A stretch of 53,626 nucleotides of DNA from assembly GCA_016192545.1 (NCBI GenBank), contig JACPTX010000007.1:1-53626 (forward strand), in the 5' to 3' direction. Origin of the DNA: Candidatus Omnitrophota bacterium (GTDB lineage: Bacteria > Omnitrophota > Gorgyraeia > Aquiviventales > Aquiviventaceae). Under the pieces are notes generated by a model that was given only the letters and a program-made list of their open reading frames with translations, was not told the DNA's origin and ran no database searches. Shown here in pieces: positions 5,308 through 48,382 of this stretch. The translations under genes and the position numbers were made by a program. Within the stretch, counting starts at the first letter, position 1. Each line of letters opens with the position of its first letter.

Positions 5308-6548
5308 CAGGCGGTTCTGGCGGCCACGCGGCAGGCGCCTGCCGCGGACCAGACCAGCAGCAGCGGTTCAATGAGCCAGCGATGCCGCCCCTCGACGTAG
5401 AACGCCGCCTGGATCACGGAGACGCTGGCGGCCAGGAGCAGCACCAGCACCGTGGCGTCCCGCCGGGACGAGTCGCCCGATCGCCACGCCTGCACGATCC
5501 CGATCACGGCCAGCCCGAGCAGGAGCGCGTAGTAGACGCGGTAGCCGACCGCCCACGACGCCGGATAGTGCAGGCCGGTGTGCGGCGAAAACCACCAAAA
5601 GTAGCCGAATTTTTTGACGAAGCGCTGCCATGCGGCCGCCGGGTCCTGCCGGATCGCGTCCCAGGCGGCGGCGGTCAACAGCGCATTGACCTCGACCTCA
5701 TTCCTCGTCTGGTTCTCCATCTGCGATAGGAGCGGCTTCGGCATCCCCTCCAGGACCGGTGTAGTGGATCCCAGGGCGTGCGACGTTCCGGACGCGCCCG
5801 GGTGATTGCCATACCAGAGGTTCAGGCCGGTGTCAGTCCGCAGCGGAATCAGCCGCCCGTACATCCGCCAGCCGCGGATCACCATCGGGGCCAGCATCAG
5901 CGCGGCTCCGACGGCGACCCCTGCGACGACGCGGACCGCGGCCGCCCGCGCGGCCGGCGACTTCCAGACGAGCCACAGGCCCCAGAGCGCGAGGAACGGC
6001 GCGAGCGTCGCGCGCGAGAGCATCGCCAGGCCGGTGACCAGCCCCGTCCCCACCGCCCGCGCCAGGCGGGTCTGGGGACGCAGCCGGACCAGCAGCAGCA
6101 CGCACAGCGCCGTCAGCAGCACATCCAGCGTCTGCGAGTGCAGCTTGCCGACGTAGACCAGGCCGCCGGGGTGCAGGGCCGCCAGCATCCCTGCGAGCAC
6201 GGCGGCAGACGCGCCGAACAGCGGCCGGGCTAAGGCATAGAGGACCAACGCCGTGCACCCGAACCAGACCGCATGGACTGCGACCATCATCCACGCCTGC
6301 CCGCCCCCAGCCCACAGGACGCCAGCCAGCGCCAAGGGGTAGACGGCTGAGCCGTAGAAATAGTACTTCGTGCCCATATACTCATAGACCAGGCCGCGGC
6401 CCTGCAGGAGCTGCTCGGCGACGTACGAATACTCCCACCGCTCCGGCGTCAGGAAATGGCCGGTCGCGGTGGCGACGGCGATCGCCGCGGCGAACGCGGC
6501 GAGAAACAGGAGCAGCCGGATGGCGCGCTCGCTCGGCCGCCGGGTCAT
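5307..6548 (-). CDS. GT39/ArnT-like membrane glycosyltransferase
   Basis: 413 residues from the ATG at 6548, which overlaps the upstream TGA. An in-frame extension further upstream is only antisense-like Arg/Ala-rich sequence and was discarded. The protein has about nine or ten membrane segments. After the first segment comes RWEYSYVAEQLLQGRGLVYEY, the periplasmic acidic loop typical of dolichyl-phosphate-mannose-protein mannosyltransferase-like (PMT_2) enzymes. LRTDTGLNLWYGNHPGASG is another loop typical of this group. Such enzymes use a polyprenyl-phosphate sugar as donor on the periplasmic side. The GT2 gene at 8370-9128 could supply that donor. Confidence 0.8.
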   Translation of the reverse strand: MTRRPSERAIRLLLFLAAFAAAIAVATATGHFLTPERWEYSYVAEQLLQGRGLVYEYMGTKYYFYGSAVYPLALAGVLWAGGGQAWMMVAVHAVWFGCTALVLYALARPLFGASAAVLAGMLAALHPGGLVYVGKLHSQTLDVLLTALCVLLLVRLRPQTRLARAVGTGLVTGLAMLSRATLAPFLALWGLWLVWKSPAARAAAVRVVAGVAVGAALMLAPMVIRGWRMYGRLIPLRTDTGLNLWYGNHPGASGTSHALGSTTPVLEGMPKPLLSQMENQTRNEVEVNALLTAAAWDAIRQDPAAAWQRFVKKFGYFWWFSPHTGLHYPASWAVGYRVYYALLLGLAVIGIVQAWRSGDSSRRDATVLVLLLAASVSVIQAAFYVEGRHRWLIEPLLLVWSAAGACRVAARTA

Positions 6549-7213
6549 CCACAGCACGCCGTGTAGGCGACGCGCTCCGCGCCGGCCGGCGCCGGCACCG
6601 GCTTGCGCGCGAGCACGCCGACGAAACATCCCCACCCGTAGGCCAGCATCGAGACCGGCCTCAGCCCCTGCTGCGCCATCAGCACGAGGAGCTCCGCGCG
6701 GCTGAAGACCGGCCCGAGCCACACGCCGACACGGGTGCGCTTGATCCACGGCTGGAAGCCCAGCGGGCCTCGACGGGCCGGCACCCCGACAAAGAGATAG
6801 CCGCCGTCTTTCGTCACCCGCTGCATCTCTTCCAGCGCCGACGCCGGCGCGGCCAGGTGCTCGAGGGTGCTGCTGCTCCAGACCAAATCGAAGACGCCCG
6901 AACGGAACGGCAGCCGGTACAGGTCCGTCTGGACCGCCGGCAAGGCCGGGTCCCGGCGCCGCGCCTCGCGCAACGCCTCCGCGTCGAGATCGGCGGCGAT
7001 GCTGAGCGCCACGCCGGATTCGCGCGCGAAGAGGGACGAGGCGAACGCCGGCCCGGAACCGCCCTCCAGCACCCGGCTTCCAGGCGCGAGGCATGCGCGC
7101 GCGGCCAGGTAGCCGACCAGCCGGCGATTGAGCCGCCGGCGCAGCGCATCATAGCCCCGGTACAGCCAGGAGCCGGGACCGCCCGGCACACTCCAGGACT
7201 TCGCCTGCATCAT
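6545..7213 (-). CDS. Class I SAM-dependent methyltransferase
   Basis: 222 residues. It starts at 7213, where tandem ATG codons sit on the upstream stop (TGATG). Motif I reads SRVLEGGSGPAFASSLFA (about 44-61), an unusual form of the usual DxGxGxG. Later come the post-I acidic AADLDAEAL and the motif-IV-like FDLVWSSSTLEHL. The C-terminal half resembles other sugar or lipid methyltransferases of glycan loci. It is adjacent to a second methyltransferase, so the two may act in sequence. The substrate is unknown. Confidence 0.82.
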   Translation of the reverse strand: MMQAKSWSVPGGPGSWLYRGYDALRRRLNRRLVGYLAARACLAPGSRVLEGGSGPAFASSLFARESGVALSIAADLDAEALREARRRDPALPAVQTDLYRLPFRSGVFDLVWSSSTLEHLAAPASALEEMQRVTKDGGYLFVGVPARRGPLGFQPWIKRTRVGVWLGPVFSRAELLVLMAQQGLRPVSMLAYGWGCFVGVLARKPVPAPAGAERVAYTACCG

Positions 7214-7968
7214 CAGACAGCCGCCTTTTGCACGACAGCGAGCAGGGACGACCCGAACGGCAAATCCATCCCTGCCAACAGGCGGCGCTCCCAGTCGCTG
7301 GCCCGGAACAACAGCGCATCCACGGGGCGCGGCAGCAACCGCAGCTCGGAATGCGGCCGGCCGTTCCCCCGCCATCCCAGTGCCCGGCGCCAGAGCCGGT
7401 ACGCCGCGACCGGCGCCAAGACGCTCATGAACAGATGCGTCATGCGCACCACGCGCCCGGGCAGGCCTTCCAACAGCGCCCGCAGCTCCTTGCGGGTGTA
7501 GCGGCGCGAGGCCTGCACCGCCCGATGATGCTCCGGGCTCATCAGCCACCGGTACGCCGGCACCACCACGATCAGGCAGCCGCCAGGCCGCAGCACGCGC
7601 AGAAGCTCCCGGCAGGCCTGCCGGTCGTCCACCCCGTCGCACTCCAAGACGTCCACGCCGAGCACCGCGTCGAACGAGCCGTCGCGGAACGGCACCGCAT
7701 TCACCGAGGCCACGCACATCCGCGGCAGGCGCCGCTGCGGCCACCACGGCGCCGCGACCGCCGAGACGTCGAATCCGTAGGCCTCTTCGCTCACCTCGCG
7801 GCTGAGCACCTCAAGGGTCTTGCCGGTCCCGCAGCCCGCGTCGAGGATCCGCGACGACGGCCCCAGCCCGGCGCGCCGGCAGCAATCCACCAGGATCGCG
7901 CGCAGCTCCCGGAACCACCAGTAGGAGGATTCCGATTCCGCGAGCGTCCGGTACTCGTGCGCTTCCAT
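7213..7968 (-). CDS. Class I SAM-dependent methyltransferase
   Basis: 251 residues. The N-terminal MEAHEYRTLAESESSYWWFR is typical of a family found in glycan loci. SAM motif I is SRILDAGCGTGKTLEVL. VPFRDGSFDAVLGVDVLE and LRVLRPGGCLIVVVPAY follow in the canonical order. The start overlaps the cupin gene's stop (TGATG), and the stop overlaps the next methyltransferase start. It probably methylates a sugar or carrier lipid. The target cannot be read. Confidence 0.87.
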   Translation of the reverse strand: MEAHEYRTLAESESSYWWFRELRAILVDCCRRAGLGPSSRILDAGCGTGKTLEVLSREVSEEAYGFDVSAVAAPWWPQRRLPRMCVASVNAVPFRDGSFDAVLGVDVLECDGVDDRQACRELLRVLRPGGCLIVVVPAYRWLMSPEHHRAVQASRRYTRKELRALLEGLPGRVVRMTHLFMSVLAPVAAYRLWRRALGWRGNGRPHSELRLLPRPVDALLFRASDWERRLLAGMDLPFGSSLLAVVQKAAV

Positions 7969-10288: not shown

Positions 10289-10317
10289 ATTATAGAGGGT
10301 TCTCCGACCCTTGTACA
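10289..10317 (-). promoter_or_regulatory. Candidate internal sigma-70 promoter before the DegT aminotransferase
   Basis: On the minus strand TGTACA (10317-10312) is separated by 17 bases from a consensus TATAAT (10294-10289). The predicted start of transcription, about seven bases downstream, falls on or next to the ATG at 10282, so the message would be leaderless or nearly so. The stretch is AT-rich against a GC-rich background and lies in one of the few gaps between genes. A short AGGGT/ACCCT hairpin lies in the spacer. The -35 box matches consensus at only four of six positions. Confidence 0.45.
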
Positions 10318-44017: not shown

Positions 44018-45065
44018 GTCTCACGGCGAGCGGAGTGCCTTCGGCCATCGAACCCTCGGAGGCGAGCGCGAGGATCTCCGTGGCGACCCGCCCGATCCCC
44101 TGCCCGTCGACGAGACGGCGGCCGGCCACCCCCATCGCGGCGCGCGCCGGCGCGTCGTGCGCCAGCGCCGTCAGCGCCGCCGCCAGCCGGGACGGGAAGC
44201 CGGCGTCATCCGCCGCGCCAAGGTCTTTCATCGCCCCGGCCGCGGATAACCCTCGGAGATTCAGCCGCTGATTGTCGGCCAGCAACATCCCTAATGCCGG
44301 CGTGGCGGTGGCCGCCAGCTCATACGCGGTCTGCCCGGCCGCGCTGATCGCCACGTCCGCCTGCAGCATCAGCGCGCGCATGTCGCCCGGCGTCTGATGG
44401 AAGGTCACGCGATCAGCCCCGTCCGGTGCCATGCCCGTGGGCGGGGCGAACGGCCCGAGGACGACGTCCACCGCCGCGTCCGGCAGGCTGCGCCGCGTGA
44501 CCTCAAGGATCGGCTGCAACCGCCCGCGTGACGTCCCCCCGCCGGTCAGGACCAGCACGCGCCGGACGGTCTCGGCGTACGCCGGCCGCTCGGGCGCCAG
44601 GGCGAATGCCGGCCGCAGGAGGATGTACCGGGGTCCAAGACGATAGCGCGTCACGGGCAATCCCTGATACGTCAGCGCCTCGGCGCCGGCCGACCCGTTC
44701 ACGACGAGATCCACGGGCACGCCCCTGGCTCCGATGTCATCGAGACACGCGACCGGCGCCTCGCGTCTGAGGGCGGCGAGACCCTCGGCCGGCAGCTCCG
44801 GGTCGTCAGCCACACAGACGACCGGCCGCGGCGCGCACCGCAGCAGCGCCGTGGCACGCGCCAACCCCTCCCCGTCCGGATCCACCTCGATGGGAAAGCC
44901 GGAGGGGCTGAGCGCCGCCGCGGCTTCAGCGGACGTCACGACGAACCTGACCGGCACCGGCGCGGCGCCCGACGCGAGGCGAGCCGCCAAGGTCCAGCTG
45001 CGCCGCAGATGCCCGAACCCGACGCGCTCACCGCCCGCGATCCGAAAGACCACCGTCGGCCTCAT
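44004..45065 (-). CDS. PseG-like UDP-sugar hydrolase (GT-B fold)
   Basis: 353 residues from the ATG at 45065 (ATGA). VFRIAGGERVGFGHLRRSWTLA (5-26) is the Gly/His nucleotide-sugar loop of PseG/SpsG proteins. DDIGARGVPVDLVVNGSAG and VLVLTGGGTSRGRL follow, and ISAAGQTAYELAATATPALG is the C-terminal donor site. PseG removes UDP from UDP-2,4-diacetamido-trideoxy-altrose, giving the NeuB substrate. Together with the NeuB, CMP-synthetase and GNAT genes it supports a pseudaminic-type pathway. Confidence 0.88.
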   Translation of the reverse strand: MRPTVVFRIAGGERVGFGHLRRSWTLAARLASGAAPVPVRFVVTSAEAAAALSPSGFPIEVDPDGEGLARATALLRCAPRPVVCVADDPELPAEGLAALRREAPVACLDDIGARGVPVDLVVNGSAGAEALTYQGLPVTRYRLGPRYILLRPAFALAPERPAYAETVRRVLVLTGGGTSRGRLQPILEVTRRSLPDAAVDVVLGPFAPPTGMAPDGADRVTFHQTPGDMRALMLQADVAISAAGQTAYELAATATPALGMLLADNQRLNLRGLSAAGAMKDLGAADDAGFPSRLAAALTALAHDAPARAAMGVAGRRLVDGQGIGRVATEILALASEGSMAEGTPLAVRHDGR

Positions 45066-45805
45066 TCCATCTGCACCACCGGGGGGGCCGCGAGGTCGTG
45101 CGCCGGGCCCCACCCGAACCGCCGCCTCGCCTCGTGCGCCACGCGGGGCCATGGCATCTGCAGCTCGGCGCGCAGCGGCCGGGGGACCATGAGGCCGCGT
45201 TCGGCCAGGTGCCGGGCCGCCGCCGCCCCATGCGGCCCGAGCGCGGCGGTCAGCGCCTCGCGCATGCCCGGATCGCCGACGGCGACCGGTTCCCCGCGGG
45301 CGTCGGTGAGCATCGCGTCATGCGCCGCGTCCACGATCACCCATCTGCCGTCGAGGCGGACGAACGGCACGACCAGCCGGCCGCCGTCCGGGAACATGAA
45401 GACGCGCCAGAAGGCGGGGACGCCGGCATAGGCGCTCAGCGTGGCGAACACGTCGGCCCGCTGGTCCGCCAGCCCGTGCCCGCGGATCATGATGTGCAGG
45501 ATGTGGTCGTCAATGACCGGCCAGCCCTCCGGCGTCTGTCGGACGTGGTCATGGACCCAGGCCAGGACGGCCGCCGCCCGCTCACGGTCGGTCCGCAGCC
45601 CCTGCGTGATGTCACGCGCCGCCAGGCGGTACTGCTGGTCGCGGTGCAGGAAGGCGAGGAGCTTCGCGTAGAGCGGCAGCGTATGCGTGGAGACCTGAAA
45701 ATTGACGCCCTGTTTGGTCGCGGCCGGCAGCTGCAACACGCCGTAGACCGCCGTCGGCAAGACCAGCACGGCAAGACCGATCACCAGCAGGCGCCTCCGG
45801 CTCAT
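45062..45805 (-). CDS. Transglutaminase-like protein lacking catalytic Cys
   Basis: 247 residues with an N-terminal signal anchor (about 5-25). RAAAVLAWVHDHVRQTP is the helix before the active site of transglutaminase-like folds. GHGLADQRADVFATLSAYAGVPAFWRVF aligns with the usual G-x-C-x-(D/E)-x-A-x-L-F region, but Ala113 stands at the Cys position. LDGRWVIVDAAHDAM follows as the late strand with Asp. The expected His-x-W strand (VVPFVRL) also lacks its His. It is likely periplasmic and non-enzymatic. The alignment is by eye, so the family call is moderate. Confidence 0.6.
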   Translation of the reverse strand: MSRRRLLVIGLAVLVLPTAVYGVLQLPAATKQGVNFQVSTHTLPLYAKLLAFLHRDQQYRLAARDITQGLRTDRERAAAVLAWVHDHVRQTPEGWPVIDDHILHIMIRGHGLADQRADVFATLSAYAGVPAFWRVFMFPDGGRLVVPFVRLDGRWVIVDAAHDAMLTDARGEPVAVGDPGMREALTAALGPHGAAAARHLAERGLMVPRPLRAELQMPWPRVAHEARRRFGWGPAHDLAAPPVVQME

Positions 45806-46437
45806 CAGGTCACCGCCGCCTCCGGAAGCGCGGGGGCGATCTCCGCGCCGCGCTGCTCGATGATGATGAGCCGCTCCTCGGCGATGCCCAGCGCCTGCAG
45901 GCGCCGCCGGAGCTCATGGTGGCCGTGGTTGAGCGAGCCGATGATCCCGCAGTCGAACGCGCACCCGGGCAGCTCCTCGACGCGCATCACCCGGACGCCC
46001 AGGAAGCTCTGTCCGGCCGCCTGGTCGTCCACCACGCCGGCCAGGTTCAACCCCATCCCCTTGAGCGTGAGGTAGGCGATCTCCGTGATCTCGCCGACGC
46101 CGAAGAGCACGACGTCCTTGCCGCCGGCCTGCGCGATCCGGCTGAGGCGCTCCTGCAGGACGCGGCGGACGCCGCGGTAGAGGAAGAGCGAGTACTCGAG
46201 GTAGGCATAGGTGAGGCGCGTCTTCTCGGTGATCCCCTTGGGCGTGATGAGGTACTGCAGGCGGTTTTTTTGGATATTGACGACCTTCACGTAGCCCTTG
46301 TTGACGAAGCGGCGGATCATCAGATTCGTCAAGCCGAGGGCCACCCCCAGCTTTTTGGCCAGGTGGCGCTGCGTGAAGGAGGGGTTGACAGACAGCTCCT
46401 CGAGCGCTTGCAGCTCCCGGTACGACGCCTCTTTCAC
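45805..46437 (-). CDS. EPS-associated MarR-like winged-helix regulator with C-terminal Rossmann domain
   Basis: 210 residues from the GTG at 46437, preceded by GGAGGT at 46448-46443. Residues 1-80 are a winged helix (FTQRHLAKKLGVALGLTNLM, then YLITPKGITEKTRL), close to the MarR type tied to exopolysaccharide loci. Residues 107-170 form a nucleotide-binding fold (VVLFGVGEITEIAY, LAGVVDDQAAGQSFLGV), similar to CoA-binding or PglD N-terminal folds. It is the first gene after the only strong promoter and next to a palindromic operator, so autoregulation in response to a nucleotide or nucleotide sugar is likely. Confidence 0.85.
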   Translation of the reverse strand: MKEASYRELQALEELSVNPSFTQRHLAKKLGVALGLTNLMIRRFVNKGYVKVVNIQKNRLQYLITPKGITEKTRLTYAYLEYSLFLYRGVRRVLQERLSRIAQAGGKDVVLFGVGEITEIAYLTLKGMGLNLAGVVDDQAAGQSFLGVRVMRVEELPGCAFDCGIIGSLNHGHHELRRRLQALGIAEERLIIIEQRGAEIAPALPEAAVT

Positions 46438-46442
46438 CCCAC

Positions 46443-46448
46443 ACCTCC
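46443..46448 (-). promoter_or_regulatory. Ribosome binding site for the regulator GTG start
   Basis: GGAGGT on the minus strand, five bases before the GTG at 46437. It decides for this non-ATG start, because no ATG lies nearby in frame. Confidence 0.75.
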
Positions 46449-46453
46449 CCTGT

Positions 46454-46470
46454 TGTTCATTTCATGAACA
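46454..46470. promoter_or_regulatory. Palindromic operator overlapping the -10 box
   Basis: A perfect inverted repeat TGTTCAT-ttc-ATGAACA, 17 bp. It covers four of the six -10 bases and the predicted transcription start near 46460. A dimeric winged-helix protein bound here would block RNA polymerase. The adjacent regulator gene is the natural candidate to bind it. Confidence 0.75.
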
Positions 46471-46495
46471 TAAAGGAGTCCCGCACCCCTGTCAA
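46467..46495 (-). promoter_or_regulatory. Main sigma-70-type promoter of the downstream operon
   Basis: On the minus strand TTGACA (46495-46490, perfect), a 17-base spacer, then TATGTT (46472-46467). The predicted start is about 46460, leaving a 5' leader of roughly 23 bases before the GTG. From here to the left edge 45 genes follow on the same strand with few gaps, so this promoter may drive most of the window. A 10-bp palindrome ATTCCGGAAT (46501-46510) lies just upstream of the -35. Confidence 0.85.
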
Positions 46496-46528
46496 GGAAA
46501 ATTCCGGAATCGGAGGACTCAGGAGCGG

Positions 46529-48382
46529 CTACCGCCAATACCCTTTCCAGCGGTAGAAGCCCAGCCCCAGGTATTCGTGGAGCACCGCGTAGAGATGCTT
46601 CGGCAGCACGCGGCTGCCGTCTCCATAGAAGCGGCTGGACGTCACCGGCACGCAGCGCACCTCGAACTCGGGGGCGTAATGCCGCCAGACCAGCCAGGCG
46701 CGCCGCATATGATACGGGGAGCTGACAAAGAGGATCCGCCGCGCGCCCGCCTGCCGCAGGTACTCCGCGCTGGACACCACGCCCTCATAGGTGTTGGCCG
46801 CGCGGCTCTCCAGGTGGATGGCCTGGGGCGGCACCCCGAGCTCGATCGCGATGGCCCGCATCACGCTCGTCTCATGGAAGGTCCGCACGTAGCCGGACAC
46901 AAACACCAGCCGGGGCGCCAGCCCTTCCTGGTAGAGGCCCACGGCGCGCTGCACCCGCTCCTCGTGCCCCTCCCCCGCCTTGCCGGACTCCCCCATCCCG
47001 GCGGCGAAGACGACGATGGCATCCGCCGGCGCGGGCGCGTGCTCGAGCTTCAGCGGCCCGGCCGTCCACCAGAGCAGCGGGGTGTGAAAGACCAGGCCGT
47101 AGGCCAACCCGGCGGCGGCCACGGCCTTGGCCAGCCGCCGCAGATGCCGGCGCCCAAACGCCAGGAAGCGTTCGGTCCAGTGCAGCTCCTGCTCCATCCG
47201 GCGGCGGACCAGCTCCTCTTCGATCAGCCCGCTCATCCCGGCCAGCTTGGCCGACCAGGAATTCTCCTCCGCCAGCGCGCGGCGCTGCCGCTGGGCCGCG
47301 CCGTCCGCATGGCCGTCTTTCAGCAGGCGCTCCAGGTGCCGGGCGAACTCCTCCGGCTCGCGGCCGATCAGCACGCTGCCCTGCGCCCGTTCGGCGACCG
47401 CCAGGACCTCCGGCAGGGCCGTCGAGAGCACGGGCTTGCCCAGCGCGAAATATTCGTTCAGCTTCGTCGGATAGACGTGCCTGGTGTACTCCGTGAGGTG
47501 ATACGGGATCATGCAGACCGCGAAGGCCTGGATGTAGCGGGGCAGCTCCTGGTGCGGCCTGGGACCCAGCAAATGGACATTGGCGATCCCGCTCAGCTCG
47601 GAGACGTCGGTCTGAATCGGGCCGATGAGCACGAACGACCAGCCGGGATGCCGCTGCGCGAGGGCGCGCACCAGCGCCTGGTCCACCCACTGATGCACGC
47701 CGCCGACGTAGCCGATGCGCGGCGAGGGCAGCGCGGCCAGATCCTCCGGGACGGGCTGCCGGCTCTGGGCGACGGCGTCGAACACCTCCAGGCTGACGCC
47801 GAAGGGAAAATCATGGACCCGCGGATTCCACTGCGCGCAGTACTCGTGCAGCGCCTTCGACGTCACGAACACCAGATCCGCCTGCTCGATGAGCCGGCGC
47901 TCCGTGCGCGCCACCTTGTGCGCGGCCGACGAGCTGGCCGCGAAGCTGTCGATGCAATAGTAGATGGTCAGCGTCGGATCCACGGCCCGCAGGAGATCCA
48001 GCGTCAGCGGCGTGGGGAGAAAGACCCAGGCGAGCGGCCGCTTGAAGCCCACCGCCTGCATCCAGGGCCGCAGCGTGAGGCCGATCAACCACCGGTTGGC
48101 GAGGCGCGCGAGCAGGGCGTACGGGAACGGCCACACCAGCGGCGCGTAGACGTACAGCCCCGGCTCGATCCGGCGGATGCCCTGCACGCCGCGGCGCCAG
48201 TTGCGCCATCGCTGGCGCAGCCGCGGCAGGTCCCGCAGGCGGGGGGCGCGGGCGCCGGTGTTCTCGATGAACAGGACGCGGTTGCCGGCGCGGGCCAGCC
48301 GCAGCATGATCTCCTGGTGGCCCTGCCAGATGAAATCCCAGTCGATCGACGAGATGCAGAGGATGTCTTCGTTCTGGATCAT
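46529..48382 (-). CDS. GT-B glycosyltransferase fused to a DUF218/YdcF domain
   Basis: 617 residues from the ATG at 48382 (ATGA). Residues 1-400 form a GT4-like transferase (ILCISSIDWDFIWQGHQEIM; IGYVGGVHQWVDQALV; YPTKLNEYFALGKPVLSTAL), similar to TuaH-type enzymes. A hydrophobic segment at about 429-450 leads into a DUF218 (YdcF/SanA/ElyC-like) domain, 460-600: ADAIVVFAAGM, RLVFVSGYVRTFHETSVM, ESRAANTYEGVVSSAEYL and ILFVSSPYHMRRAWLVW. DUF218 proteins act in envelope or undecaprenyl-glycan metabolism. The fusion would place a cytoplasmic transferase and a periplasmic domain on one chain. It ends the upstream operon. Confidence 0.85.
   Translation of the reverse strand: MIQNEDILCISSIDWDFIWQGHQEIMLRLARAGNRVLFIENTGARAPRLRDLPRLRQRWRNWRRGVQGIRRIEPGLYVYAPLVWPFPYALLARLANRWLIGLTLRPWMQAVGFKRPLAWVFLPTPLTLDLLRAVDPTLTIYYCIDSFAASSSAAHKVARTERRLIEQADLVFVTSKALHEYCAQWNPRVHDFPFGVSLEVFDAVAQSRQPVPEDLAALPSPRIGYVGGVHQWVDQALVRALAQRHPGWSFVLIGPIQTDVSELSGIANVHLLGPRPHQELPRYIQAFAVCMIPYHLTEYTRHVYPTKLNEYFALGKPVLSTALPEVLAVAERAQGSVLIGREPEEFARHLERLLKDGHADGAAQRQRRALAEENSWSAKLAGMSGLIEEELVRRRMEQELHWTERFLAFGRRHLRRLAKAVAAAGLAYGLVFHTPLLWWTAGPLKLEHAPAPADAIVVFAAGMGESGKAGEGHEERVQRAVGLYQEGLAPRLVFVSGYVRTFHETSVMRAIAIELGVPPQAIHLESRAANTYEGVVSSAEYLRQAGARRILFVSSPYHMRRAWLVWRHYAPEFEVRCVPVTSSRFYGDGSRVLPKHLYAVLHEYLGLGFYRWKGYWR

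Follow-up and report, generated by a model that had tools for sequence, protein, structure and literature searches.

A conserved palindrome as the probable operator of a two-domain MarR_EPS-like regulator in a surface-glycan gene array of Candidatus Omnitrophota

The MarR_EPS proteins (TIGR04176) are single-domain winged-helix regulators of ~105 residues located in polysaccharide clusters, and a member from Acidithiobacillus was reported to be salt-induced (PMC10599003). In the open-access literature searched (TIGR04176, EPS-associated MarR, and half-sites with MarR), we found neither a described target of MarR_EPS nor a description of the operator considered here. Rex proteins (~210 aa) are redox-sensing repressors that leave DNA on binding NADH; they have a winged helix followed by a C-terminal Rossmann domain, and their operator is TTGTGAA-W4-TTCACAA (PMC2883068). 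The classical MarR autorepressors (MarR, MepR, HcaR, and FabT) have a palindromic operator over their own promoter. Their operator sequences differ from GTTCA-N5-TGAAC, the core described below.

The protein analyzed in this study resembles each of these systems in part. Like MarR_EPS members, it has a winged helix bearing their recognition motif, lies in a polysaccharide cluster, and has the same operator core before its gene, but it is twice as long and has an added Rossmann-like domain. It shares with Rex the domain order and the length, but its N-terminal domain is of the MarR type, the Pfam CoA_binding model was matched at only 14.4 bits (cutoff 22.3), and its site, TGTTCA-N5-TGAACA, differs from that of Rex. 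The fold of its N-terminal domain is that of the classical autorepressors; unlike in those proteins, the presumed sensor is a separate C-terminal domain, and the targets would be large glycan operons. MarR_EPS is an already named family; the window's protein belongs to a two-domain branch.

The stretch of DNA analyzed (the window) is a 53,626-nt contig from a MAG of Candidatus Omnitrophota, and the whole contig is a single minus-strand array of approximately 50 genes. Its relevant features are as follows.

46490–46495 (minus): −35 hexamer TTGACA
46467–46472 (minus): −10 hexamer TATGTT, after a 17-nt spacer; its last four bases are common to the palindrome
46454–46470 (minus): putative operator palindrome, TGTTCATGAAATGAACA, with the conserved core GTTCA-N5-TGAAC
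46460 (minus): predicted transcription start, ~7 nt past the −10 box and inside the palindrome
46444–46448 (minus): Shine-Dalgarno-like GGAGG preceding the GTG start, identified by eye
45805–46437 (minus): two-domain winged-helix regulator gene, 210 aa, GTG start
46129–46437 (minus): MarR_EPS-like winged helix and long helix, residues 1–103 (TIGR04176, 68.8 bits; cutoff 88)
45850–46125 (minus): C-terminal Rossmann-like domain, residues 105–196; the nearest solved fold is the Rex core
31–45805 (minus): 44 tightly packed downstream genes, the presumed regulated operon

The promoter (46495–46467, minus strand), TTGACA-GGGGTGCGGGACTCCTT-TATGTT including its spacer, scored 10 of 12 consensus matches, and the 17-bp palindrome was perfect, with the arms TGTTCAT/ATGAACA separated by GAA. 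Both elements, claimed in the initial annotation, were confirmed, each once in the window, as was the placement of the palindrome over part of the −10 box and the expected start site. The DNA-binding gene that had been noted beside the palindrome is the regulator gene, whose GTG lies 16 nt downstream. The description of this promoter as the clearest in the window amounts to a tie: a second promoter-like site, TGTACA-N17-TATAAT (10317–10289, minus strand), also scored 10/12; the operator is absent there. This second site lies before a DegT aminotransferase gene, 7 nt from an ATG, and is possibly an internal, leaderless promoter. No further copy of the palindrome, exact or near, was found in the window, and no other full palindrome with up to two mismatches was found in the 1.35 Mb assembly.

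The regulator did not reach the TIGR04176 cutoff in a six-frame search either (70.3 bits), and it carries the winged-helix motif QR...(S/A)LG.(T/A)N of MarR_EPS; the recognition-helix residues QR...LG..N were invariant across the long and short forms. A MarR-like winged-helix fold was supported by a structural match to 4rgu (E 3e-5). Most Foldseek matches of the full model were to the wing, so the C-terminal domain was folded alone, and the nearest folds of the resulting model were Rex (3wg9, TM 0.65) and WbaP (8t53, 0.66), about equally close. The sequence search of the regulator likewise indicated Rex, but a GxGE motif in the Rossmann loop sets the domain apart from it. This modeled domain, with its predicted ligand pocket, is presumed to be a ligand sensor. 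No family model for the long form was found in the libraries searched. The long forms clustered together with 98% SH-aLRT support; one of the 40 rows in this group is a short form, probably L067, which has N within its sequence. In two relatives (L010 and L016; L064 and L062), the regulator appeared to be fused to a sugar-nucleotidyltransferase domain (470–478 aa); if the fusion is as it looks, it would couple the regulator straight to nucleotide-sugar synthesis.

The run of 45 same-strand genes described earlier was reproduced when the regulator and all the downstream genes were counted. The scripted gene list gave 44, and a methyltransferase ORF (6545–7747) with Pfam support, which the list had omitted, completed the count; as this ORF fills it, the apparent 118-bp gap at 7095–7212 vanishes. 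The downstream genes encode two NeuB proteins, a CMP transferase, a PseG-like protein, RmlD, a carbamoyltransferase, HisF/HisH, aminotransferases, glycosyltransferases, a flippase, capsule-synthesis-type proteins, and an initiating sugar transferase. The gene order regulator–PseG–RmlD–carbamoyltransferase–NeuB–CMP transferase was kept in one relative (L052). A transglutaminase-like protein (45062–45805, minus strand) adjoins the 3′ side of the regulator and occupies the same place in another (L050).

The only real gap longer than 15 bp in the array was the 91-bp gap (46438–46528) that holds the promoter. Five further same-strand genes of the glycan type (encoding GT-DUF218, a methyltransferase, an SGNH hydrolase, an asparagine-synthase-like protein, and one unmatched product) lie upstream and end at 46529, 33 bp before the −35 box. 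No convincing terminator was found between these genes and the promoter, the terminator-like matches being no better than those in shuffled sequences. Because of these five genes, the promoter is internal to the array, and the proposed head of the glycan operon is local at most. Through upstream read-through and the second internal promoter, some genes of the cluster could escape the control of the operator.

The only other core site in this genome was found on another contig (G000:C40:29547–29561; L189, L191), after the promoter-like TTGACG-N17-TATACT. The operon that follows contains a UDP-sulfoquinovose-synthase-like gene, an epimerase, two radical SAM proteins, and a NeuB–CMP-synthetase fusion; its first gene, the UDP-sulfoquinovose-synthase-like one, had no close homologue or orthologue in 44 relatives. 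Thus, both core sites lead operons of the nonulosonate glycan type, and with this sole other site heading a glycan operon, the regulon probably consists of two operons, the window cluster and the C40 operon. The notion of a single repressible switch was not established, given the operator at the head of another glycan operon and the promoter-like site at 10317–10289 that has none.

The association between the palindrome and the regulator was examined in homologues gathered from 59 Omnitrophota genomes. The exact sequence TGTTCA-N5-TGAACA was present in 17 of 22 genomes bearing a homologue and in 1 of 37 genomes without one. There were 27 exact sites in total, of which 25 were at homologue loci; the other two were inside unrelated coding genes and were taken as chance. 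A control with the reversed pattern gave two matches in the 59 genomes, and the chance expectation per genome from base composition was 0.007 for the exact 12-bp site and 0.27 for the 10-bp core.

A wider scan with one genome per species yielded 80 loci, in records named Omnitrophota, Acidobacteria, Rokubacteria, Chloroflexi, Planctomycetes, Pseudomonadota genera, and "delta proteobacterium"; the redundancy filter on the 80 upstream regions was weak and removed one row. In an unbiased count of all dyads, GTTCA-N5-TGAAC was found upstream of 68 of the 80 homologues, and the top dyad in random segments reached a count of 4. The core site was present in five phyla (Omnitrophota, Acidobacteria, Rokubacteria, Planctomycetes, and Pseudomonadota); near the one Chloroflexi locus and the one "delta" locus, none was seen. 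Approximately 12–15% of the homologues had no recognizable site nearby (for example, L013, L014, L019, and L076). In a separate sample of the class of Ramlibacter, the exact core lay within 530 bp upstream of 28 of the 30 TIGR04176 members above the cutoff, and the other two had the core with one mismatch; no core was found 3′ of the gene start at any of these loci. Among two-domain members of the same class, 8 of the 10 loci read had the core, in two cases more than 500 bp upstream. The search for the palindrome before orthologous regulators, as had been proposed, thus succeeded, and its absence there, named in advance as the refuting outcome, was not what was observed. From its presence before 68 of 80 homologues and 28 of 30 TIGR04176 members, the palindrome very probably serves as operator throughout the MarR_EPS lineage. 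Long and short regulators were found in the same genome in four cases (L182 in G205, G197, G154, and G065); in G205, the two are 10 kb apart and have the same operator core. It is possible that such coexisting regulators cross-regulate glycan clusters.

The position of the site relative to the promoter was also conserved. The best sigma-70-like promoters just 5′ of the site, scored for 66 regions, averaged 9.6/12 (6.6 for shuffled sequences), and the −10 box typically ended 1–3 nt ahead of the site; in the window and two relatives, the two overlapped by 3–4 nt. With the site directly after or overlapping the −10 box, the geometry is as expected for an autorepressor. Of the 50 short-form genes, 26 had their start codon inside the operator spacer, and the right half-site therefore encodes residues 3–4 (M-x-E-H/Q). 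These 26 loci (among L079–L128, nearly all Omnitrophota) are single-domain forms with the arrangement TGTTCA-ATG-NN-TGAACA, and the place of their −10 box suggests leaderless mRNAs. Where the regulator was the second or third gene, the site was kept at the operon head, before an SDR gene (L061), a GNAT gene (L080), or rmlA-rmlB (L126). Additional sites headed other sugar operons, namely a HAD-epimerase operon (L063) and that of a Methylococcus nucleotide-sugar dehydrogenase (L140). In these sequences, the operator tracks the operon and not merely the regulator gene.

The operator core accompanies this regulator family across phyla, in a consistent promoter geometry. Our main reading, to which we assign a probability of roughly 0.85, is that the palindrome is the operator through which the adjacent regulator represses its own gene and the co-transcribed glycan genes until released by a ligand, with the C40 operon also under its control. 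A dimer of the winged-helix protein would bind GTTCA-N5-TGAAC over the −10/+1 region and exclude RNA polymerase, which would silence the regulator gene together with the surface-glycan genes, rich in nonulosonate functions, that are presumed to be co-transcribed with it. The operator would be freed by a signal sensed through the Rex-like C-terminal domain, probably a small ligand of the nucleotide type, and the regulon in this genome would most likely include the second glycan operon. We infer repression from the promoter and operator geometry; binding, the ligand, and a single transcript for the whole operon are likewise predictions from the sequence.

The extent of control is where this reading could be narrowed. 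The operator might set the level of the regulator alone, with most glycan genes expressed by read-through or from internal promoters, which would fit the five genes that stop 33 bp before the −35 box without an evident terminator and the operator-free 10/12 promoter at 10317–10289. We consider this improbable, since the array is packed with no other real gap above 15 bp, and the operator in relatives heads glycan operons in which the regulator is not first or is missing. A different sign of regulation is less probable still. Some MarR-type proteins, such as SlyA, are described as activating by antagonizing H-NS (PMC5797941), and the regulator could similarly act as an activator or a countersilencer. 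A site that overlaps the promoter is an unlikely one for activation, however: in most homologues it directly follows or overlaps the −10 box, and in the 26 short forms it includes the start codon, both of which suit steric repression.

The palindrome might also serve another factor, of the Rex or LexA type with GTTC/GAAC arms, and lie near the gene by coincidence. The predicted Rex-like fold of the C-terminal domain would be in keeping with this, and GTTC half-sites are known from some LexA boxes. However, the sites occur with this regulator family in phylum after phylum and hardly anywhere else, which brings this explanation close to refutation. The Rex site moreover differs in both sequence and spacing (PMC2883068).

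The repressor reading has consequences beyond this locus. With the putative operator in hand, MarR_EPS-controlled glycan operons become predictable in Methylococcus, Accumulibacter, Burkholderiales, Acidobacteria, and uncultured Omnitrophota, and the predicted targets can be tested in culturable strains. A broader proposal, which we offer tentatively and hold to be doubtful as a whole, is that GTTCA-N5-TGAAC is read by all MarR_EPS-type regulators in several phyla, whether they have one domain or two, that clusters are cross-wired through it, and that the Rex-like domain provides feedback from nucleotides or nucleotide sugars. If true, a shared operator word would cross-wire glycan clusters and paralogous regulators within one genome, and this feedback would act on entire surface-glycan operons in the two-domain branch. 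The two-domain branch suggests a route by which very large surface-polysaccharide operons may sense the metabolic state.
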